A stretch of DNA of 41,724 nt from Pseudomonadota bacterium (GCA_005797785.1 SYKL01000055.1:1-41724); one strand, 5' to 3'; shown: positions 23,316 through 36,533, counted from the first letter of the stretch. Notes: generated by a model not told the origin, from the sequence alone. Made by a program: numbers and translations.

Positions 23316-25867
23316 CCTCCGCTTGGAAGGCGCGCGCACAGCGCGCCTTTGACGGACTCGACGATCGCGGACGGGCTAACGTCACCGGACTCGCGCTCGG
23401 AAGTGCACTTTACTTAGTGCATTTTGCCATATTCTCGTGGTGGTACATCGAAGACGCTGCGATCAGTTTTGCGTACGCGCGAAACATCGCCGATGGCGAA
23501 GGTTTTGTGGCGATGCCTGGCGCCGAATGGGTCGAAGGCTTCTCCAATCCCACCTGGACGCTCGCACTCGCTGGACTCGACTTCTTCGGTATTACGCCCT
23601 GGATCGCCGCAAAAATGCTCGGGGCCCTGTGCGGCTTAGCGACACTTCCGCTGGCCGTACGCTGGTTTCACGACATTCGTCCAGACGCGACTCCCAAAGA
23701 AACGGCCCTCGTTCCGTTGATCTTGGCGACCTCGCTGCAGTTCGTTCTTTGGAACGGTTCCGGCCTTGAAAATAGCTTCTTTGTTCTTTCGTTAACCGCC
23801 AGCGTGGTGGGACTGTGGGATCCTCGCCGGGTTTGGGTCTCCGGCCTCGCTGCGTCAGTCTTGGCGATCACCCGCCCGGAAGCGCCTTTGTACGTCGCCA
23901 TCATCGGGTTCACCGGGATGTGGTACCACCGACGAACGCTGATTCGCTGGGCGCTGCCATGGTTCATTGCACTCCTGGTGCCCTTTCTCGCCTGGCATGC
24001 CTGGCGATATCATGCTTTTGCTTGGCCTTTTCCAAACACCTACTATGCAAAACTTGCCGACGCTGAGAAGTTTGCACCGTTGGACTGGCAGAAAAAAGGT
24101 TGGAAGTACATTCGAAACTACGCTTTCTATTCCGGACATGGATTTCTGCTTCCGCTGTATGTCGCGGGGGCGGTTGGATTTCGGCGACCGACCCTTATTT
24201 ATGGAGCTATCGCCCTCGGCGGTTTGGCGACCGCGGCGCTTCTAGGCGTGGCACTGCCCGCAAATGGGCAAGCCAGCGCGATTTTGGCGACGCTTGCGCT
24301 CCTCGGAATCACTCTCGCGGCGCTCTACGAAAACCAGGGACCGCGATCACTGGCTTGGCTCCTCATGTTGACCGCAGGTTTCTTTGCCCTGTACTCCGGC
24401 GGAGACTGGATGAAGGGATACCGCTGGTTCTCGTTTGCTGCGGTTCCAGGCGCCGTGCTTCTGGCCGTGGGCATTGCCGAAATCACCCCCGTGTTTCAAC
24501 GCTGGCCGCGCATTCCACCGTTGATCGCGGGTGCACCCGTGGTTTTGGGTGTGATGAGCACCATCGGGTTCGTGAGCGCCCCCGAAACGATGCCGTACGA
24601 CGTGTACCGACGTGTGTTGTACATGGAGGGAGTAAAAGAACGTTTACACCTCGACCATGCCGCACTTCTCGACGTTGACATGGGCGCACACCTGTGGTGG
24701 TCGGACTTCGAAATTGTCGATCTGGCCGGCCTTGTCGACGTACCCATCGGTCACCACAAATGGCAGCACACTTTTATGCGTGAATATGCCTACCAAGAGC
24801 GAAATACCGAGTTCGCCCACGTTCACGGAAGCGCCCCGCGCAATTCGCTCAACAAATTGCCAGAATGGAAGCGGTACATCGAGATTTCGGCGTATCCGAT
24901 TTCACCAACGACTCTGCACGTCGGAAACCACATTCGAAAGGACCTGATCGTCCATCCCTGGACGGGTCCCACCGACAAGACGGCCCGCTTCCAAGGGAAT
25001 GTCGACCTGTTGGGATTGAACGTTCCAGCTGGCACGGCACCTGGCGAAGAATTGTATTTGGAGCTTGCGCTGCAGCGTCCCAACAAAGGGAAGGATTTTA
25101 GGGTTTGGGTGTTCCTCTCGAACGGAAAGGGCATGTCCGTTCACGAGCTCCCCCCGGCATACGATTGGGTTCTCCCGTCCAAATGGAAGGCGGACGAAAC
25201 CTGGGTTGGGAAGTACAGCCTTCCGATCCCTGCCGATTTTATCCCTGGTTCCTACGACCTTGGCATCGTCGTCGTCGGAACCGGCGCCCGAAGTGAGGTT
25301 TGGGCGGCCGTGGAGAGCTCTGGGACATCGGAGTATCCAGCGTTGATCCCAGGCGAAGTACGGTGGCCCGGCGCCGTCGAAGTTCAATCCCCTTCGGCGG
25401 CCGAACAAACAGCCGATCGCGAATTGGACGCCGCGCTTCAGAGTGCGTCCTCCGGCGACTGCCCGAGTGCCGAAGCTCGATGGGCAATTTCCCGCCGATG
25501 GCTGGGGCGCCACCACGCTTGGCAAACCTCGGCCCGCCAGCGCATCGACGACGCCCTTGCCGCTTGCTGGGCGTTGGATGCGGAGAACTCCGAAGATGTG
25601 GAGTCCATACGCAAGGCTCGCCGATACAACCACCAAAATCCCGAAACGTTGCGTGTCAGCGAACTGCTCGCGAACCGATGGGAAGCCGCAGGAAACGCCG
25701 CAACCACCGAAGATGCCCGATACACCGCATGGTCAAAAGCGTTGATCGCTGACCCTTCCCGCGCCTGGGTCCGCAAGCAGGCAGAACAAAGCCGCGATAT
25801 TCGGCTGGGGCTCTCGGCACAGAATCCAACCGAGGCCATCCCCGCTGGGGGAGGAGGTCCGGATTGA
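23312..25867 (+). CDS. GT-C fold membrane glycosyltransferase candidate (AftB-like), copy 2
   Basis: This is an 851-residue paralogue of the preceding gene. It shares WYIEDAAISFAYARN, VEGFSNPTW, NGSGLENSFF, AITRPE, the segment FAWPFPNTYYAK, GWKYIRN, YSGGDWMKGYRW, the 'GAHLWWSDFEIVDLAGLVD' module and the beta domain (VHELPPAYDWVLPSKWK). It lacks several middle helices and the charged C-terminal tail of copy 1. The ATG overlaps the stop of copy 1 and its stop overlaps the TTG of the cytochrome gene, so all three should be translated together. Tandem duplication followed by divergence is the simplest history. A heteromeric or sequential action of the two copies on one glycan is inference. Confidence 0.72.
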   Translation: MTSAWKARAQRAFDGLDDRGRANVTGLALGSALYLVHFAIFSWWYIEDAAISFAYARNIADGEGFVAMPGAEWVEGFSNPTWTLALAGLDFFGITPWIAAKMLGALCGLATLPLAVRWFHDIRPDATPKETALVPLILATSLQFVLWNGSGLENSFFVLSLTASVVGLWDPRRVWVSGLAASVLAITRPEAPLYVAIIGFTGMWYHRRTLIRWALPWFIALLVPFLAWHAWRYHAFAWPFPNTYYAKLADAEKFAPLDWQKKGWKYIRNYAFYSGHGFLLPLYVAGAVGFRRPTLIYGAIALGGLATAALLGVALPANGQASAILATLALLGITLAALYENQGPRSLAWLLMLTAGFFALYSGGDWMKGYRWFSFAAVPGAVLLAVGIAEITPVFQRWPRIPPLIAGAPVVLGVMSTIGFVSAPETMPYDVYRRVLYMEGVKERLHLDHAALLDVDMGAHLWWSDFEIVDLAGLVDVPIGHHKWQHTFMREYAYQERNTEFAHVHGSAPRNSLNKLPEWKRYIEISAYPISPTTLHVGNHIRKDLIVHPWTGPTDKTARFQGNVDLLGLNVPAGTAPGEELYLELALQRPNKGKDFRVWVFLSNGKGMSVHELPPAYDWVLPSKWKADETWVGKYSLPIPADFIPGSYDLGIVVVGTGARSEVWAAVESSGTSEYPALIPGEVRWPGAVEVQSPSAAEQTADRELDAALQSASSGDCPSAEARWAISRRWLGRHHAWQTSARQRIDDALAACWALDAENSEDVESIRKARRYNHQNPETLRVSELLANRWEAAGNAATTEDARYTAWSKALIADPSRAWVRKQAEQSRDIRLGLSAQNPTEAIPAGGGGPD

Positions 25868-27252
25868 AACGCGCCCGTTCGCTCGCAATCGTTGCGGCTT
25901 TTTTCGCCGTTTCCGCTCTGGCCACTCCGTCCGATCCCCGAGGTTGGTCGCCGGGAACGCCAGCGGCGAACAGCGCACGCGTGTTGGAGCCGCTCGCTCA
26001 GGAAGTAACACTTGAGTTTCCAAGCCGCTTTCAGAAGTTGATCACCGGGCCCACGGTGATCGTCTACTTCTCGCCGACCTGCCCGCATTGCCAAGCGGTG
26101 GCGCCCGAAATCAACGCATTGTCCAAACGTCTGGGCGAGAGCGCCACCGTCATCGGCGTGTCCACCGGCGGACAGTCGGCGGTCGCCATGAAAGAGTTCG
26201 TCTCGGAATACCGAGTTCCTTACAAGGTGATCCACGACACCGATGGAGAGATCGCTGCGACTCTCGGCGTCGACTCCACTCCTTCGGTCATGCTGGTGGT
26301 TCCCGACGGCGAAAAAGTCAAGGTAGCTGACTATTGGTACCCCTATCGCCACGGTTTTGACACGCTTGTAGAAATGCGCGCCCTGGAAAACCCCTGGGAG
26401 GCCTTTCGCCCGGGCGAGTTTCACGGGGATGGAGCCTGCGCCACCTGTCATCTTAGCGAAGCTTCTTCCGCACTTCTCACCCACCACTCCATCGCTTGGG
26501 CCACCCTGGTCGAGAAAGAAGAAGATCAAAACCCCGCTTGCACCAATTGCCATGTCACCGGCGCGGGTCAGCCGACCGGTTGGGATGGATCGGAGGGGTC
26601 GCACCTGGTGAATGTCGGCTGCGAAGCTTGCCATGGACCCGGCGGCCCGCACGATGGCGCCCGCCTCGACCCCCGCACGACCTGCAGCGGGTGTCACGAT
26701 GAAAAGCACAGTATCGCGTTCTCAGTGGAAAAGGGGCTCCCCAAAATCGACCACTACCGCGCGGATGCCATGGACGACAACGCCTTTTTTGAGGAGCGCC
26801 GCAAGCTCGCCAACGGAGAAGTGCCAAGGGATTTGCTCGCCTTTTCCGAGGGAACCAATGTCGGATCCGCCGCCTGCGTAGGTTGCCATTCCGAAGAGCA
26901 CGGCGCCTGGGAAGCTTCTCCCCACGCCAAAGCCATGGCGCGGCTCGACGCCACCCAAAGCCAAGATCCCACCTGCGTTCGTTGCCACGCCACCGCGGAG
27001 CGATCAGGTCCACCCCCCGCCACGGTTGCCGAATTTCATACCTCGGAAAGCGTAGGTTGCGAGTCCTGCCACGGACCCGGCGAAGCGCACGTGAAGGCCG
27101 GCGGCGGCAAAGGCAACATCGAAGGACTCGGCGAAGATTGCCCCGTTTGCGTACTAGAAGCGGTGTGCACCTCCTGCCACACGCCGCAGTGGGACCCGAA
27201 TTGGGAGCTTGAACCCATGCTTGAAAAGATCAAGCACGGAAAGAAACCCTAG
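25864..27252 (+). CDS. Thioredoxin-like domain fused to an octaheme cytochrome c
   Basis: This exported protein of 462 residues has an N-terminal signal peptide (SLAIVAAFFAVSALA). A thioredoxin-fold domain (about 40-160) carries an active-site motif CPHC (residues about 73-76, in YFSPTCPHCQA) and the cis-Pro loop STPSVML. From about residue 190 eight CxxCH heme motifs appear: CATCH, CTNCH, CEACH, CSGCH, CVGCH, CVRCH, CESCH and CTSCH. The spacing and CEACHGPG/CESCHGPG pairs resemble cytochrome c554-type multiheme proteins. A ninth site is degenerate, CPVCV. The start is TTG at 25864, preceded by GGAGGTCC and overlapping the GT-C copy 2 stop. A periplasmic thiol-heme redox role is likely; its link to glycan transfer is unexplained. 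Confidence 0.85.
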   Translation: MKRARSLAIVAAFFAVSALATPSDPRGWSPGTPAANSARVLEPLAQEVTLEFPSRFQKLITGPTVIVYFSPTCPHCQAVAPEINALSKRLGESATVIGVSTGGQSAVAMKEFVSEYRVPYKVIHDTDGEIAATLGVDSTPSVMLVVPDGEKVKVADYWYPYRHGFDTLVEMRALENPWEAFRPGEFHGDGACATCHLSEASSALLTHHSIAWATLVEKEEDQNPACTNCHVTGAGQPTGWDGSEGSHLVNVGCEACHGPGGPHDGARLDPRTTCSGCHDEKHSIAFSVEKGLPKIDHYRADAMDDNAFFEERRKLANGEVPRDLLAFSEGTNVGSAACVGCHSEEHGAWEASPHAKAMARLDATQSQDPTCVRCHATAERSGPPPATVAEFHTSESVGCESCHGPGEAHVKAGGGKGNIEGLGEDCPVCVLEAVCTSCHTPQWDPNWELEPMLEKIKHGKKP

Positions 27253-28298
27253 GGCAGGGCATCCGCCGATGGTAAATCGCTTGTCGATTTTTCTGGCAAC
27301 TGCCTCTTCAAAAACTCCGCCACCAACGGGAAGACTTCGCTGGAAGCGGTGCGGCCGACCACCGGATCGATGTGTCCATAGTCGTACGAAAAGCCATTCG
27401 CTCTGCTCAATTTCACGTATTCACAGTTCGTAAATACCGAGCACGCATAGGCGACGTTCGGCTCCGCAGCGACGCGATCCTTCTCTGCGCCGATCACCAA
27501 GATGGGAACATCGGAGGGAGCAATCCATGCGTCGCCGTTTTCCTCAACAACTTCACCGGCTTTCAGCCACTGCACCACCTGTTGCGCCGTGGGTTTGGTT
27601 AGGTCAATCAGGGAGGTGCGGGCCATGCCCTTCACCATCGGTCCGTCCATGTTTTCCAGATTCGCCAACTGCGTAAACACAGGGTTTGTCTTTCCTAATG
27701 GCGCCACCATCTTCGCCATGGCCTGAGCGTGGAATCGGCCGCGCCCTCCCACGGCCCAACCCGAGCCCCGAATCATCTTGTGCAAACCGCCTAAATGCTG
27801 AAGGGTCGCTGGCGAGCAGATCGCGACTCCGGCCGTGATCTTTTCGGGATAGTCGCGCATGGCTGTATAAAGGAGCATTCCTCCCATGGAATGCCCCACC
27901 CAATATAGCTGCTTCTCGCCGGTCGCCGCTAAGACGGTGTCGACGATCGCCGGCATGTCGTCCTTGGCATGATCATCGAAGTTAAACCCTCCCAAAGCGC
28001 CTTTGGACGGAGGATAGCTGCCCGGATCCCCCCTCAACTCCGGCACCCATACATCCCAGCCCCGCTCCTGAAGATACCAGGCCAACGAGACTTCTTCGCG
28101 GTAGTCGAAATTGTAGTGGTTGGCACCCATGCCATGCACCAACAGAACCGGCGGCCCATCACCTGGATAATGACGGATCTCCGCCGCCCATTCGTCTTGG
28201 GTCTCGTAACGAACGATCTCTGCGGGCACCATTGTTGGCGGCAATGCGTGCGCACACGCATTCAACGCCAGGAATCCCACCAGCCATCCTTTGTTCAT
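27249..28298 (-). CDS. Alpha/beta-hydrolase lipoprotein
   Basis: This 349-residue lipoprotein has a signal peptide ending in LNAC. It is followed by an alpha/beta-hydrolase fold: LLVHGMGANHYNFD supplies the oxyanion-hole region, GHSMGGM the nucleophile Ser, GAEKDRVA the probable Asp and YDYGHIDPV the His. The likely reaction is hydrolysis of an ester or lactone, but the substrate is unknown. The ATG at 28298 was chosen because GTAGGAGG precedes it and it starts the signal peptide; the ORF track runs further upstream. It lies 8 bases after the MIO-less lyase stop in the same operon. Its stop is interlocked with that of the convergent cytochrome gene (CTAG). Confidence 0.85.
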   Translation of the reverse strand: MNKGWLVGFLALNACAHALPPTMVPAEIVRYETQDEWAAEIRHYPGDGPPVLLVHGMGANHYNFDYREEVSLAWYLQERGWDVWVPELRGDPGSYPPSKGALGGFNFDDHAKDDMPAIVDTVLAATGEKQLYWVGHSMGGMLLYTAMRDYPEKITAGVAICSPATLQHLGGLHKMIRGSGWAVGGRGRFHAQAMAKMVAPLGKTNPVFTQLANLENMDGPMVKGMARTSLIDLTKPTAQQVVQWLKAGEVVEENGDAWIAPSDVPILVIGAEKDRVAAEPNVAYACSVFTNCEYVKLSRANGFSYDYGHIDPVVGRTASSEVFPLVAEFLKRQLPEKSTSDLPSADALP

Positions 28299-28306
28299 CC
28301 GACCTC

Positions 28307-29731
28307 CTACGAAAATACTCCGCCGCGCACCGCCGTTCCCAACGCTTTCAAATCCGGATGAAGCACGCGATCCTCGGTCCAACGGCGGACCAACGACCGA
28401 ACCCTGGCGTGCGTCAGCATCGAATCTCTCGACGCTTGCTTACCTTCGTCCATATGAAATTCGAGACCTTGAGACGCGCACATCAGCTCGATCGCGAGCA
28501 CATCGGCGAGGGTCTCAGTGCAATCCCAGGCTGTGCGTCCCGCGATTGGCCCCATCGAAGCGTGGTCTTCGCGGTGCTGTACCGACGGAATCGAATCCAC
28601 CGACGCCGGGTGGGACAGACCCTTCATCTCGCTCACCAGGGATGCCGTGGTGTACTGTGCCAGCATCAACCCGCTGTTTAGGCCGGTACTCGGTACCAGA
28701 AAGGAAGGAAGCCCTGAAAGCTGACCATACGTCAAACGAAAGGTTCGTCGCTCGGAAATCGACGCCACCTGCGTCAACGCGATCTTCAGCTGATCCATCG
28801 CCATCGCAGCAGCAGCGCTATGGAAATTTCCCGCTTCGACCGTCCGATCGCCGAACATCAATGGGTTATCGACCGCCGCGTTAAGCTCACGTTCCACCAC
28901 GGTTTCCACGAATTCGAGCACTTCCCAAGCAGCGCCCAACACCGCCGGCGCACAACGGATGGAAAATGGATCGGGCGTTCGTCCCTCATAGCAAAGTTCA
29001 GACCCAGACAATCTAAGACGCAATCGCTCCGCGACAGCGATCGGACCTGGATGGCGGCGTTCCTGCATCGCTTCCGCATCCAGGCAGCGTAGATCGGCGC
29101 GCACCACCTCAAACGTGAGCGCACAAGCGGCTTCTGCCGCCTCCAACAGTCTTCGAGAACGAGCAACGACCAATCCGGCCCATGCTGCGGTGAGCGAGTC
29201 ACCATTCACAAGGGCTAAGGCTTCTTTTTCCGTGACTTCGACCGCCCGCACTTCGGAGGCAACCGGTCCGCTGTCGCCCCAAACCCTGCCGCCCAAGCCA
29301 CAAAGGACCTGTGCCACGTGGGCGAGCGTCGGCGATCCCGCCGTGCCAACCGACCCTTGCGACGGGATCCAGGGGAGAGGCCCATCCAACAGCTGAAGGA
29401 GAGCATCCGCAATCTCCGGGCGAACTCCACTAAAGCCGCACGCCAACACGTTGACCCGAGCGGCAATCAGCGCACGCACCATCGGCTGCGCCAAAGGGGG
29501 CCCTACCCCGGCGCAATGCCCAAGGATGAATCGACGCACACGCTCCGCGGGCTCGGCAGGAGGCTCACCTCCAACCAACCAACTCCACTTTTGCGCTAAC
29601 CAATCCCCTGTTCGAACGCCGGCGGCCATTCGAGCGCGCGCCGTGGCATCCAACACCGGGCGTGCACCTTCGGCGATCGCCGTCAATTGTCGAGGCGTCA
29701 ACGACCTCCCATCCAGGCGGATGTCAGACAT
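28307..29731 (-). CDS. HAL/PAL-family lyase paralogue lacking the MIO serine (probable pseudoenzyme)
   Basis: This 474-residue protein clearly belongs to the histidine/phenylalanine ammonia-lyase family: GHCAGVGPPL, FSIRCAPAVLGA, ELNAAVDNPLM, GNFHSAAAAMAMDQL and SVDSIPSVQHREDHASM are all present. Yet the tripeptide that cyclises to the MIO prosthetic group, normally Ala-Ser-Gly, is Thr-Ala-Gly here (GSVGTAGSPTLAH). The essential N-terminal YGxNTGxG tyrosine loop is also missing. It therefore cannot make MIO by the known route. The ATG lies 8 bases inside the 3' end of the intact lyase gene, so both are co-translated. Because the family is tetrameric with active sites built from three chains, it might assemble with the intact lyase. 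It shows no frameshift. Confidence 0.82.
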   Translation of the reverse strand: MSDIRLDGRSLTPRQLTAIAEGARPVLDATARARMAAGVRTGDWLAQKWSWLVGGEPPAEPAERVRRFILGHCAGVGPPLAQPMVRALIAARVNVLACGFSGVRPEIADALLQLLDGPLPWIPSQGSVGTAGSPTLAHVAQVLCGLGGRVWGDSGPVASEVRAVEVTEKEALALVNGDSLTAAWAGLVVARSRRLLEAAEAACALTFEVVRADLRCLDAEAMQERRHPGPIAVAERLRLRLSGSELCYEGRTPDPFSIRCAPAVLGAAWEVLEFVETVVERELNAAVDNPLMFGDRTVEAGNFHSAAAAMAMDQLKIALTQVASISERRTFRLTYGQLSGLPSFLVPSTGLNSGLMLAQYTTASLVSEMKGLSHPASVDSIPSVQHREDHASMGPIAGRTAWDCTETLADVLAIELMCASQGLEFHMDEGKQASRDSMLTHARVRSLVRRWTEDRVLHPDLKALGTAVRGGVFS

Positions 29732-31334
29732 CCATCACCCCCGCCAATGCGCCAACCGCGGATTGCACCGCTTCTATCAGTAGTCCATCGCGGATGGCCT
29801 CCGCCAAACCTTCCATGTCCTCCGACGGAGTGAGCGCGCCACGCCCCCCTAGAATGCGTTCGACGGCTTCCAGGGCCGCGGCCGTGCCCTCGCCGAGCCG
29901 CACATCGACGTCCTGTCGTTGGCGCCACCAGAGGCCCCCAGCGGCACAGAACAGCTCAATCGCTACCACGCGGGTCGCATTGGCCACGACTTCGCGCGCG
30001 CGTCGGGCCGCGGTGGTCGCCATCGCCACGTGGTCCTCTTGGTCTTCGCACGTCGGAATGGAGTCAACCGATGCCGGCCAAGCAAGGGCTTTATTTTCGC
30101 TTACCAACGCCGCGGCTGTCGCCTGCGGAATCATCGCCCCCATGCCCGCCGCGTCTTTCTCCACCAACAACGCAGGTAATCGCGCAGAAAGGTTGCCAGT
30201 GGTCAAGCGAAACAATCGACGCTCGGACAGATTTGCCAACTCCGCCACCGCCAATTTGAGATGGTCGGAGGCCATACCCACGGGCTCACCATGGAACAAT
30301 CCGCCAGAAAACGCCTTATTGGCGTCCTCGACGTCCAACAGAATCAGCGGATTGTCCGTCGCCGCATTGATCTCGATGCGCGCCTGATTTCCGGCAAACC
30401 GGATCCCATCCCGAACTGCACCTAAAATCTGTGGTGTACAACGCAGGGAATAGGCGTCCTGCACCTTTCCCGGCAAAGAATCCACCAAGTTTGAGCCCTG
30501 AATCAACCGCCGCAGATTGGCCGCGCATGCGATCGCTCCTGGATACGGTCGAAGCTCCTGAATCGCAGGATGCAACGCACGGCTCACCCCCCGCAGCGCC
30601 TCCCAAGTCATGCCGGCAGCAATTTCTGCCGCAAGAACCAACCGTTCCGCGTCGTACACCGCCAGTGCCAGCATCGCCGTCGACGCCTGGGCGCCATTCG
30701 TGATCGCCAAGCCCTCCTTCGGGCCCGGGATCAACCTCGGAATTCCGGCACGCGCCATCGCCTCGGCGCCGGTCAGGCGCTCGCCCCCAAACCACGCATG
30801 CCCCGAAAACTCCGGTTCTTCGCCCTCCGGACCCCGAAACATCACTAAGCCGAGGTGGGACAATGGAGCCAAATCGCCCGAAGAACCACACGAACCCTGA
30901 GAAGGAACTTCGGGGGTGACGCCTTTTTCCAGCATCCGGCACAGGGTGTCCACCAGAGCCGGCCGGCAACCCGAAGCCCCCTTTGCAAGTGCATTCGCAC
31001 GGAGCAGCATCATGGCCCGCACCACTTCCGCTGGAAACGCCGGCCCCACCCCGGCCGCGTGGCTGCGAATCAAATTCAGCGACAAACGCGAGATGTCCTT
31101 GGCATCGATCTTGACCCGCGCCAACGAGCCATAGCCGGTGTTCACCCCATAGACGGGCAGCGATTCCCCTTGTTCGTCCCGCAGCATGCCTTCAGCAGCG
31201 GAACGAACCCATGCCTCGCTCGCGTTCATCCGCTCGCGAGCGCGATCATCCAAACGCACAACGGCCGATGCCCGAGCGACGCTCGCCACCTGCGAAAGAT
31301 CCAAGGACTGGCCATCGAGCCGAAGTTCGGTCAT
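29724..31334 (-). CDS. hutH: Histidine/aromatic amino acid ammonia-lyase
   Basis: This 536-residue MIO-dependent lyase eliminates ammonia from histidine, or possibly an aromatic amino acid. The catalytic Tyr loop is intact (PVYGVNTGYGSL), the MIO site is Ser-Ser-Gly in GSCGSSGDLAPLSH, and QDAYSLRCTPQILGA, EINAATDNPLI and SVDSIPTCEDQEDHVAM match the HutH pattern. The His in RSHAAGVG is seen in histidine and tyrosine lyases rather than phenylalanine lyases. No hutU, hutI or hutG lies in the window, so a histidine-degradation role is not proven by context. The ATG at 31334 has GGAG close upstream. It heads a three-gene operon with the MIO-less paralogue and the hydrolase. Confidence 0.85.
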   Translation of the reverse strand: MTELRLDGQSLDLSQVASVARASAVVRLDDRARERMNASEAWVRSAAEGMLRDEQGESLPVYGVNTGYGSLARVKIDAKDISRLSLNLIRSHAAGVGPAFPAEVVRAMMLLRANALAKGASGCRPALVDTLCRMLEKGVTPEVPSQGSCGSSGDLAPLSHLGLVMFRGPEGEEPEFSGHAWFGGERLTGAEAMARAGIPRLIPGPKEGLAITNGAQASTAMLALAVYDAERLVLAAEIAAGMTWEALRGVSRALHPAIQELRPYPGAIACAANLRRLIQGSNLVDSLPGKVQDAYSLRCTPQILGAVRDGIRFAGNQARIEINAATDNPLILLDVEDANKAFSGGLFHGEPVGMASDHLKLAVAELANLSERRLFRLTTGNLSARLPALLVEKDAAGMGAMIPQATAAALVSENKALAWPASVDSIPTCEDQEDHVAMATTAARRAREVVANATRVVAIELFCAAGGLWWRQRQDVDVRLGEGTAAALEAVERILGGRGALTPSEDMEGLAEAIRDGLLIEAVQSAVGALAGVMDV

Positions 31335-33172: not shown

Positions 33173-34354
33173 TCACTCGCAGAGGGCGGTCTCGTTCTCT
33201 TCCAGCTTGGTCGTCTCCAGATCATCGACCGTCCAATGGTCCTTCTTGATCTTCTTGATTTCGAAGGTACCCCGCACGACGACCCGCGATTGGGAATCCG
33301 TACCGTCGAACACCAAGTGAAACTCACCGGAAGCGGGGTTGCCAAGCACCAATTCCGACGCCGGCTCGTTAAAGCCAACCCAGTTGTAGTTGAGCTCACC
33401 CCACTTGTCCAAACCCGGCGCGGCATCGTCCGCCGGACGCCACAAATTCGTGTGCACCTTGGGTTCAACGTCGACGCCCACCGCCGCAAATTCTGAAACG
33501 ATCGTCGACTGAACATCGTTCACGTCTGCGATCAGGTCGTCATAGTCTTCTGGATCGCTGATGTAGAAAAGATCGCTTCTGCTGACTTCAATGTCGTTTT
33601 CTTCAAAGGAGGCATACGCCGACGGATTTCCGTAGCGAACCGAACGCGACGCAAAGGAATCATCGGCGAACTTCGCCGATGCAAAGCCCGCAAGCCATTC
33701 GGTAGGGAAGAACCACTGCACGTCGGTGCTGGCAGGGTTGAACTGGTACGCGCCTGCATTCAAATAATACAGGGTTTCAAACGTTGAAGGCGGCGCATCG
33801 GGATTGACGGGGTTTTCTGCATCCGCAGCTTCCTCCGCCGACCATTCCTGAACCCAATCACCATCAATGGGCTCCAAAGCGGCGTTGCCGTCGTCACCGA
33901 GCTGGCAGCTGCTCGGTTGAAAGTCGGGATCAACCACAAAAGCAAACCGAAAATCTTCGCCACCAGGGAGACGCTGGTGGAAGGTCACCTGAAGGTCGCC
34001 TTCGGACGTCATGATCGCTTCGCCGCGCCAGGGGTCCAGCGGAGAGGTGACCACCTCATAGCCGTCTGTTTTCAACCATTGTTCGTGTTCCGGGTCGAAA
34101 TCGCCGCAGATGTCGATCGGGTTCGCCAGCATGTCGTCGGCGTCGAGGCCCTCGCGGCAGTCCACCTGCCAATGCTCGCCTTCGTCCCACTTCCCTTCAC
34201 CATAATCCGCCACGTCCAATGACTGCTTACGAAGCGTCGCAGACGTATTGGTAGAAAGCAAAGCCGTGTACGAACCCTCGGTAACCTTGGCATTCTGGGG
34301 GTTGCACGCAACCAATCCCACCAGCAAAGACAGCGACGTAACCAATGGCTTCAT
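33173..34354 (-). CDS. Lipoprotein of unknown function
   Basis: This is a 393-residue exported lipoprotein with a signal peptide ending LLVGLVAC. It is acidic and rich in Trp, Tyr and Asp, with beta-strand character throughout and a helical stretch near EDYDDLIADVNDVQSTIVSEF. Scattered Cys residues (VDCREGLDADD, IDICGDFD, SSCQLGDD, ALCE) may form disulfides. No catalytic motif or known domain is recognised. The ATG at 34354 is preceded by CAGGAG and starts the signal peptide; the ORF track begins 54 bases earlier. The region 34355-34439 upstream shows no clear promoter. Confidence 0.75.
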   Translation of the reverse strand: MKPLVTSLSLLVGLVACNPQNAKVTEGSYTALLSTNTSATLRKQSLDVADYGEGKWDEGEHWQVDCREGLDADDMLANPIDICGDFDPEHEQWLKTDGYEVVTSPLDPWRGEAIMTSEGDLQVTFHQRLPGGEDFRFAFVVDPDFQPSSCQLGDDGNAALEPIDGDWVQEWSAEEAADAENPVNPDAPPSTFETLYYLNAGAYQFNPASTDVQWFFPTEWLAGFASAKFADDSFASRSVRYGNPSAYASFEENDIEVSRSDLFYISDPEDYDDLIADVNDVQSTIVSEFAAVGVDVEPKVHTNLWRPADDAAPGLDKWGELNYNWVGFNEPASELVLGNPASGEFHLVFDGTDSQSRVVVRGTFEIKKIKKDHWTVDDLETTKLEENETALCE

Positions 34355-34439
34355 AAACGGCTCCTGGGCGCACGGCCCCCACGGCGTCTCCATTACCCAT
34401 GCAGGCACCCTCGGTCAAGTGCTCGCCGTTCCACCGTTG

Positions 34440-36533
34440 TTAACCGCCTTCCGCCACAACTCCACGCAGCCCGTTCGCGCCGTCAGCCAACCAAAGCTCC
34501 GGAGCGGCGCCAGTTACCACCTGCACTGCCCCAGCCGCGCTTTCGCGAAAATGAAACCAATCTGGCGCCGACAACGAACCCTGGATCGCACGAAGAACAC
34601 CAACATTGGATCCAGCACGAACGATCAGATCGAGCTCGCCATTGCCATCCACATCGCCCACCGAAAGCTCGCCCGCCGGACCGACATCGCGTTCCTCCCC
34701 ATCGATCGTCACACGAGTACGGCCATTTTCTGCCACAGCCCAGCCCGAAGCCCAGGAAACGACATCGCAATCCGCGCCGTCGCAGGCCAACACAGTGCCC
34801 AGATCATCGCCGATGATCGCCACATCTCCGGCGCCCGCCGCTGCCTCTGAATCCGTCAATTGCGCTGCCGCATCATACCGACGTGCGGTGTCGCCATCCA
34901 ATACCACCCCTTGATCCTCGGCACAGTCCACTCGGGTGCCCGTCCCCACCGCCGGTCCGGCGATGGATCCACCGTCCAAATCGACCACAAACAGAGAGGT
35001 GTCCGTCAGGACCCAAGCCCGCTCGCCGCAAATGGCCATGTCTACCGCAGTCATGGGCGCCAACAAGTCCACATCCCATGCCACGGTCGGAGCGCTTCCG
35101 ACGGATTCCCATCCGCGCAAATGCAAATTGGTATCCTGAACAAACCCCACCAATTGTGCACCGTGTGCCGCAATCGGGCCGGTGACGGTCAACTCCGGTT
35201 GAATCCACGGGGTCGCCACCGCTACCCAATCCGGTCCACCAGCACCGGTCCAATTCATCCAATAATCGCCGGCAATCATCATATCGGCGAAATCATCGCC
35301 CGTCTGGTCCCACAGGCCCAACAAGCCCGCCTGCGGGAAATTTCCAGAAGCACCTTGGTGATACCCGTCGTCGCCGTAGTCCACCACCCCCAAATCGCCT
35401 TCCTGGTCCAGCGACCAAAACTCCCAAGCCCCATCGGAATTCACATCTGCAACCGTCACTCCCGCGTAGTCGATGTCGAAATCCACCAAGCCTGCGGAAC
35501 TCCAATCCAGATCAAAGATGGAGACTTCGGGAAACTCCTCCTCATCGGACACTTCTGTGACAAAGACAAGCTCATTTGCCCCATCTCCGTTCATGTCCCC
35601 CGGACTGGATACTGTGCTCACCGGAAGAACAAAATCCAGCGTCGGACCTACCTCCATAAAACCACTGTCGGACCAAACATACCGTGTCCACTGGTGCGTT
35701 TCGTTGATCACAGTGATCTGGGGCAAACCCATGCCCAACGAATCTCCGATGGCCATGGATTGAGGTTTAAACTCCATCTGGCGGGATTCCCAGAGCTCAA
35801 ATGCCCCCGAACCCAACCCACGCCAAACCTCCAACCGAGGATCTTCGTCGTCGGACCAGGCGATCGCCAGATCGATGATCCCATCGCCGTCCAAATCGTC
35901 GGCCCCAGCGCCGGAAACCGTCTTCCCTGCGAAACTCCAACTCGAAAGTCCAAAAGCACCGCCGTCCGCGGTGCCGCGAAACGCCACCACCGCGTCCTCA
36001 GTCCACACCAGGGCATCTCGCAGGCCGTCCCGCTCTAAAAACCCGGTCCAGACACCATGAATCTCGTCTCCCACCGGGGGCTCGTACACCGGAACGGGAG
36101 ACAAACCAGCTTTCCAGCCCCACAACCGATCGGATGCCCCCACGAGCCAAAAATCGGTCATCGGCTGTAGAAACTGATTTTCACCTTTGCTTTCCTCGGA
36201 GCGCTGAAGCGGTATGTCCCACGCTGGCAACACCACCACTTCGGCATCACCGACCTGGTGTACACCGAGATCTTCGAGTTCGATGCTTGACCATCCGGTA
36301 GAGTCGAAGTTCACCACCACCGGCTCGCCATCCACCTCAACGGTCAATTCCGCAGGTCCGCTTGCCACTCCCCACGAATTTACCGCCTGCAAGCGCACCG
36401 AGAGCGGCGCAGATCCGCGCTCCGGCACGGCGACCACGCGGGTACCCGCTTCAGGAAAGCTCTGGACAGACTGGGGGATTTCCGCGATCGGATCGGTACA
36501 ACCCAGCGCCGCGAACCACCAAAATGCGGGCAA
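34440..36533 (-). CDS. FG-GAP/VCBS-type beta-propeller lipoprotein
   Basis: This is a 697-residue lipoprotein. A short signal peptide ends in AALGC. FG-GAP/VCBS-like repeats with Ca-binding DxDxDG loops recur: GADDLDGDGIIDLAIAW, PGDMNGDGANELVFV, VADVNSDGAWEFWSL and VGDVDGNGELDLIVRA. They indicate an integrin-alpha-like propeller for calcium-dependent binding at the cell surface. An Ig-like strand set occupies about residues 30-105. The start is TTG at 36533, with GAGGAGGG just upstream and only 9 bases after the protease stop. It is thus the last gene of the membrane protein-protease-propeller unit and may be a substrate, anchor or partner of the protease; that is inference. Confidence 0.8.
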   Translation of the reverse strand: MPAFWWFAALGCTDPIAEIPQSVQSFPEAGTRVVAVPERGSAPLSVRLQAVNSWGVASGPAELTVEVDGEPVVVNFDSTGWSSIELEDLGVHQVGDAEVVVLPAWDIPLQRSEESKGENQFLQPMTDFWLVGASDRLWGWKAGLSPVPVYEPPVGDEIHGVWTGFLERDGLRDALVWTEDAVVAFRGTADGGAFGLSSWSFAGKTVSGAGADDLDGDGIIDLAIAWSDDEDPRLEVWRGLGSGAFELWESRQMEFKPQSMAIGDSLGMGLPQITVINETHQWTRYVWSDSGFMEVGPTLDFVLPVSTVSSPGDMNGDGANELVFVTEVSDEEEFPEVSIFDLDWSSAGLVDFDIDYAGVTVADVNSDGAWEFWSLDQEGDLGVVDYGDDGYHQGASGNFPQAGLLGLWDQTGDDFADMMIAGDYWMNWTGAGGPDWVAVATPWIQPELTVTGPIAAHGAQLVGFVQDTNLHLRGWESVGSAPTVAWDVDLLAPMTAVDMAICGERAWVLTDTSLFVVDLDGGSIAGPAVGTGTRVDCAEDQGVVLDGDTARRYDAAAQLTDSEAAAGAGDVAIIGDDLGTVLACDGADCDVVSWASGWAVAENGRTRVTIDGEERDVGPAGELSVGDVDGNGELDLIVRAGSNVGVLRAIQGSLSAPDWFHFRESAAGAVQVVTGAAPELWLADGANGLRGVVAEGG

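Follow-up and report, generated by a model that had tools for sequence, protein, structure and literature searches.

A conserved pair of overlapping histidine ammonia-lyase paralogues as a candidate two-chain enzyme in uncultured myxobacteria-like bacteria

Textbooks describe HAL, PAL and TAL as homotetramers whose four active sites are equal and each assembled from three chains. Why, then, would a bacterium carry two adjacent genes of this family, of which one encodes a chain that lacks the MIO serine? The question arises from a window of 41,724 nucleotides, the whole stretch of DNA analysed; this window is a single contig from a metagenome-assembled genome (MAG) that is 81% complete. The original prediction described two adjacent HAL/PAL-family genes overlapping by 8 bases, and both open reading frames were recovered at those positions and assigned to PF00221, far above its gathering cut-off of 27.3 bits. 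They are the only PF00221 proteins in the source genome at its 81% completeness. We refer to the upstream chain as Q1 and to the downstream chain as Q2, and list their features, with one neighbouring gene, in window coordinates.

29724-31334, minus strand: Q1, HAL/PAL-family chain of 536 amino acids (PF00221, 545.8 bits)
31128-31151, minus strand: Tyr loop YGVNTGYG of Q1, amino acids 62-69 (HAL Tyr53 = Tyr62); Tyr in 42 of 42 Q1 proteins
30876-30884, minus strand: MIO-forming triad of Q1, Ser151-Ser152-Gly153; Ser-Ser-Gly in 42 of 42
29724-29731, minus strand: 8-base overlap ATGTCTGA, read from the sequence, holding the Q1 stop and the Q2 start (translational coupling)
28307-29731, minus strand: Q2, MIO-less HAL paralogue of 474 amino acids, proposed non-catalytic partner (PF00221, 384.4 bits)
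29336-29344, minus strand: Thr130-Ala131-Gly132 at the MIO site of Q2; Ala replaces the MIO Ser in all 44 orthologues
28952-28966, minus strand: FSIRC of Q2, with Tyr280 replaced by Phe (44 of 44), Arg283 retained (44 of 44) and Gln277 gone (44 of 44)
28655-28681, minus strand: LNSGLMLAQ loop of Q2 (HAL ~377-385; Met382 = Met356), canonical here and degenerate in Q1; Met in 44 of 44
28562-28585, minus strand: SVQHREDH of Q2 (HAL Glu414 = Glu388); Glu in 44 of 44
27249-28298, minus strand: lipoprotein alpha/beta-hydrolase (PF00561), co-oriented, 8 bases downstream of Q2

Residues kept and lost in the two chains

We mapped residues onto Pseudomonas putida HAL numbering in 42 Q1, 44 Q2 and 59 other HAL-family proteins. 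The Tyr loop and MIO triad predicted for Q1 were both found, within a catalytic set that is complete in the window copy (Tyr62, His92, Ser151-Ser152-Gly153, Asn213, Gln292, Tyr295, Arg298, Phe347 and Glu433). All 42 Q1 proteins carry Tyr53, Ser82, His83, Ser143, Asn195, Gln277, Tyr280, Arg283, Phe329 and Glu414 in HAL numbering. With an X-Ser-Gly triad and the inner-loop Tyr, Q1 has the sequence features of an MIO-dependent ammonia-lyase and is predicted to form MIO. It scored 539.6 against the histidine ammonia-lyase subfamily model NF006871 (cut-off 524) and 518.7 against the HAL equivalog model TIGR01225 (cut-off 539.15), while Q2 scored 401 against each of these NCBIfam models.

Q1 differs from canonical HALs at Asn328 (Leu/Met), Phe370, Gly376, Ser379, Met382, Ser418 and Gln447. 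The residue at position 382 varies among the 42 Q1 proteins (Met in 19, Leu in 19, Val in 3, Ile in 1). These same seven positions (328, 370, 376, 379, 382, 418 and 447) are canonical in at least 39 of the 44 Q2 proteins. Of the residues typical of HALs, the Ser82-His83 pair is present in 42/42 Q1, with Met382 in 19/42, and Q2 has His83 and Met382 in 44/44 with Ser82 in 4/44. Two further sites distinguish the chains, positions 411-412 being Glu-Asp in every Q1 and Gln-His in every Q2, and Cys140 and Cys410 occurring together in 42/42 Q1, where Q2 almost always has Val at both.

The other half of the prediction, a Q2 with Thr-Ala-Gly, no Tyr loop and an open frame containing FSIRC, NPLM and SVDSIPSVQHREDH, was likewise borne out in every part. 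All 44 Q2 proteins lack Tyr53, have Ala for Ser143, have lost Gln277 and have Phe for Tyr280, and all 44 retain His83, Asn195, Arg283, Met382 and Glu414. The losses at Gln277 and Tyr280, like the departures of Q1 listed above, go beyond what the original prediction had noted. The region of the Tyr loop is occupied by a conserved, Q2-specific segment with Lys at HAL position 58 in 42/44. With the MIO Ser and the Tyr absent from all 44, Q2 is not classed as an MIO enzyme. Replacing the MIO Ser with Ala in RxPAL, the PAL of R. xylanophilus, abolished both MIO and activity (PMC3903478), and Tyr-loop mutants are reported as inactive (PMC9002059); it is thus highly improbable that Q2 by itself works as an ordinary ammonia-lyase.

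Retention of the pair and the histidine pathway

The original prediction would have fallen had no pairing been found elsewhere, and it called for a search of related genomes. Of the 63 genomes of the order covered here, 48 have both genes; the Q2 orthologues are 48-60% identical and always accompanied by Q1. The pair lies on one contig in 43 genomes, nearly always adjacent and in most cases with an overlap of 4 or 8 bases (8 in most loci of one family, f1, and 4 in most others); one genome has the genes 2.9 kb apart (G015). In one genus, five genomes (G026, G030, G043, G056 and G059) have Q1 and Q2 on different contigs and retain both, which speaks against inertia as the sole cause of the linkage. 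Besides these, Q1 is present in G061, where it lies at the end of a contig. Relaxed selection, a second outcome that would have counted against the prediction, was not seen: dN/dS (Nei-Gojobori, 22 close pairs) ranged from 0.07 to 0.44 for Q1 and from 0.13 to 0.47 for Q2. A sequencing error at the MIO site of Q2 is excluded, since the same Ala is found in 44/44 orthologues.

In a tree of the family, Q1 and Q2 each formed one clade with support of 100, and the union of the two had support of 60/10. Outside the order, the closest proteins among the matches listed (about 35-46% identity) were canonical Ala-Ser-Gly lyases. We scanned public contigs with an alignment as query, a single-protein query having matched nothing. 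Relatives in public records were MAGs labelled Deltaproteobacteria or Myxococcota, such as UBA796, UBA2385 and UBA2957, a type that we take to belong to Myxococcota. Four MAG records of this lineage (L085, L089, L091 and L097) carry 'Klebsiella pneumoniae' or 'Bifidobacterium breve' as their title and are evidently mislabelled.

The 48 pair genomes contained no other full-length PF00221 protein, only contig-edge fragments in two of them (G025 and G029). By comparison, 9 of the 14 genomes of the order without Q1 or Q2 had a full-length PF00221 protein (Fisher p = 1e-7, on the assumption that genomes are independent). Urocanase (HutU) was present in 44 of the 48 pair genomes and imidazolonepropionase (HutI) exceeded its curated cut-off in 43, so that HutU and HutI are found in the same genomes as the pair. 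As these genomes hold no other full-length lyase of the family and mostly encode the next enzymes, the gene content suggests that the pair replaces HutH and is probably the histidine ammonia-lyase of the order. An order of uncultured myxobacteria-like bacteria thus appears to degrade histidine with a two-gene form of a textbook enzyme.

The Hut genes do not adjoin the pair; in one genome without it, G002, a canonical HAL shares a contig with HutU and HutI and lies close to them. HutU and HutI were not found in the source MAG (G000, 81% complete), which does have the pair. G001, a genome of the same genus, has HutU and HutI and no PF00221 protein. Incomplete assemblies can explain the missing HutU and HutI of the source genome, or the missing lyase of G001, and need not.

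Asymmetric losses and a candidate heteromer

We counted losses in the N- and C-terminal halves over 129 positions, each of them conserved in 85% or more of the other HALs. All 21 positions lost in Q2 only lay in the N-terminal half, against 5 N-terminal and 10 C-terminal positions lost in Q1 only (Fisher p = 1.2e-5; the test assumes independent positions and genomes and, because positions are not independent, this and the following loss p-values are guides). The asymmetry remained at stricter conservation cut-offs (p = 1.1e-4 and 1.4e-3) and persisted after realignment. Taken alone, the N-terminal skew of Q2 (33% vs 4%, p = 1.3e-4) was not equalled by any other clade tested, in a comparison set that included one Q1 protein (L113). 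The C-terminal skew of Q1 taken alone was weak and not significant (p = 0.088); it was exceeded in L157 and L161, two divergent relatives with a single chain (losses at 8% of N-terminal vs 40% of C-terminal positions). Since these single-chain proteins lose C-terminal positions likewise, the drift of Q1 may reflect a changed substrate. No excess of complementary losses was found, 7 positions being lost in both chains where 4.9 were expected, with the same Q1 protein L113 in the comparison set. Of these loss patterns, the N/C asymmetry alone stands.

Both chains are predicted to fold as lyases. The AlphaFold model of Q2 is a confident, complete lyase fold (pLDDT 90.8; TM 0.87-0.90 against solved HALs), and that of Q1 (pLDDT 89.2) has the HAL structure 1b8f as its best match (TM 0.86/0.91). 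The lowest-confidence stretch of both is the loop matching HAL ~365-380. In PAL and HAL structures, Tyr280 and Glu414 are supplied by neighbouring chains. Three interlocking chains contribute to each MIO active site (PMC9002059). For Anabaena PAL (AvPAL), Table 1 of PMC13174424 gives T110-L421, taken from a contact map, among the predicted interchain disulfide pairs, and also N103-V414. Our alignment places these pairs at HAL ~85/384 and ~78/377, respectively; the loop preserved in Q2 would therefore lie in trans over the specificity helix, with Ser82-His83, preserved in Q1. The invariant, opposite residues at 411-412 are compatible with a specific contact between the chains.

These observations lead us to favour, as somewhat more likely than not, an obligate heteromer of Q1 and Q2 in place of a homotetramer; its simplest form would be Q1(2)Q2(2), and it would serve these Myxococcota-like bacteria as the HAL of their order. 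More tentatively, and with somewhat less than even confidence, we propose that a composite MIO site has been split between the paralogues by reciprocal loss, such that neither alone would be a full HAL and half of the sites would be catalytic. The Tyr loop, the Gln277/Tyr280/Arg283 set and the electrophile, an MIO formed from Ser-Ser-Gly, would come from Q1; Q2, unable to form MIO, would keep the fold and donate the 370-384 loop, Met382 and the Glu414 region in trans. In a D2-type Q1(2)Q2(2) tetramer, each Q1 site would draw on three chains: its own for MIO, Tyr loop, His83 and Asn195, the second Q1 for Gln277/Tyr280/Arg283, and a Q2 for the 370-384 loop with Met382 and Glu414. Two of the four sites would then be catalytic. 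Such an arrangement would free Q2 to lose Tyr53, Ser143, Gln277 and Tyr280 together and Q1 to relax Met382. We infer histidine as substrate, the heteromer, donation in trans and half-of-sites activity from these patterns together. The earlier suggestion that Q2 serves as a structural or regulatory subunit fits its conservation, selection, intact predicted fold and retention when unlinked; the losses suggest that it may go further and complete the active site in trans.

Evidence against a heteromer lies in the cysteines of Q1. The contact 150C(A)-420C(C) of RxPAL was modelled as interchain (PMC3903478), and its cysteines probably correspond in position to Cys140 and Cys410; contact between two Q1 chains at this interface would agree with that. 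Together with the complete catalytic set of Q1, and with Val at both positions in Q2, this would fit a self-sufficient homotetrameric Q1, with Q2 forming its own assembly as a ligand sensor (for histidine or urocanate) or another non-catalytic protein. A sensor could bind its ligand through the retained His83, Asn195 and Arg283, but Q2 has no extra output domain, it retains exactly those C-terminal active-site parts that are gone from Q1, and both genes are kept even if unlinked; we judge such a division of labour unlikely. It is slightly less probable still that Q2 joins Q1 in a heteromer only as a chaperone, stabiliser or allosteric subunit that donates no active-site residue. Pairing and translational coupling would suit that role, as would the conserved segment with Lys at HAL 58 that replaces the Tyr loop, and tryptophan synthase offers a precedent in which a non-catalytic paralogue allosterically activates its partner (PMC12727527), but nothing in it demands the invariant Met382 and Glu414 of Q2.

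The changes of Q1 at 328, 370-382, 418 and 447 would also be accounted for if the substrate of the pair were not histidine itself but an aromatic amino acid or a modified histidine. Met382, conserved in HALs, is variable in Q1, similar C-terminal changes occur in the divergent relatives, and the source genome is without HutU and HutI. We nevertheless regard a different substrate as improbable: Ser82-His83 of HAL is invariant in Q1, Q1 exceeds the NF006871 cut-off, and the 48 pair genomes have no other full-length HAL, with HutU in 44 and HutI in 43. Decay of Q2 into a pseudogene, or an assembly artefact, would account for its absent catalytic residues, but identical losses in 44/44 orthologues, open frames and dN/dS well below 1 (0.13-0.47) refute decay and leave this reading with a negligible probability.

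Relation to known systems and neighbouring genes

The pair shares its fold, core motifs and Ser82-His83 with HutH of Pseudomonas putida (1B8F) and Trypanosoma cruzi (6V6H), and Q1 has all the catalytic residues mapped. Known HALs form homotetramers that have four sites and carry an Ala-Ser-Gly triad, whereas the pair comprises two paralogous chains, with Ser-Ser-Gly in Q1 and no MIO triad in Q2. Laboratory mutants, MIO-abolishing ones among them, offer a second comparison: HAL S143A (cited in PMC3903478), R. xylanophilus PAL S153A and HAL Y280F (1GKJ). S143A and Y280F have natural counterparts in Q2, a conserved protein in which the Tyr loop is also gone. The open-access literature, with subscription papers outside its scope, yielded no conserved MIO-less HAL paralogue and no two-paralogue HAL. 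The nearest concept found is a partner-activating pseudoenzyme, the TSB-like protein that acts with tryptophan synthase alpha (PMC12727527), likewise a non-catalytic paralogue retained for the function of its partner; its fold and chemistry are different, and the partner there is no paralogue. Having lost MIO, the Tyr loop and Tyr280 and been kept across an order, Q2 provides a natural test of which chain supplies what, and the pair a test of how the chains of a duplicated enzyme can become an obligate heteromer, locked together by the active site that they share. Genes of the Q2 type annotated as 'histidine ammonia-lyase' should not catalyse alone.

Within the same order, single-chain HALs of the same family (in G002, G006, G022, G031 and G032) likewise occur in genomes with HutU and HutI; they differ in having one chain, with an Ala-Ser-Gly or Ala-Cys-Gly triad, and never co-occur with the pair. 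The Ala-Cys-Gly triad belongs to L159, L160 and L162, from the non-pair genomes G022, G031 and G032. Four other HAL-family proteins (L163, L164, L165 and L174, from G028, G042, G048 and G064) have an insertion of very roughly 100-150 amino acids just before QDDYS(T/F)RC, and the gene in G048 appears as two overlapping open reading frames.

The proposal that the coupled lipoprotein hydrolase acts on the lyase product drew no support. A homologue lies near the pair in 4 of 40 loci, on the opposite strand in two of these, and we rejected the hydrolase as a member of the system. Upstream of the pair, a lipoprotein-like gene (33173-34408, minus strand) and an FG-GAP-like gene (34440-36533, minus strand) have counterparts upstream of Q1 in 14/40 and 10/40 loci, respectively (clusters 3 and 4; the window copies were matched by eye). 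No functional link of these genes to the pair was found in the 40 loci, and their recurrence looks like a conserved chromosomal neighbourhood, or synteny. Elsewhere in the window, the gene at 25864-27252 (plus strand) encodes a redoxin/thioredoxin-like domain fused to a multihaem cytochrome c554-type domain.
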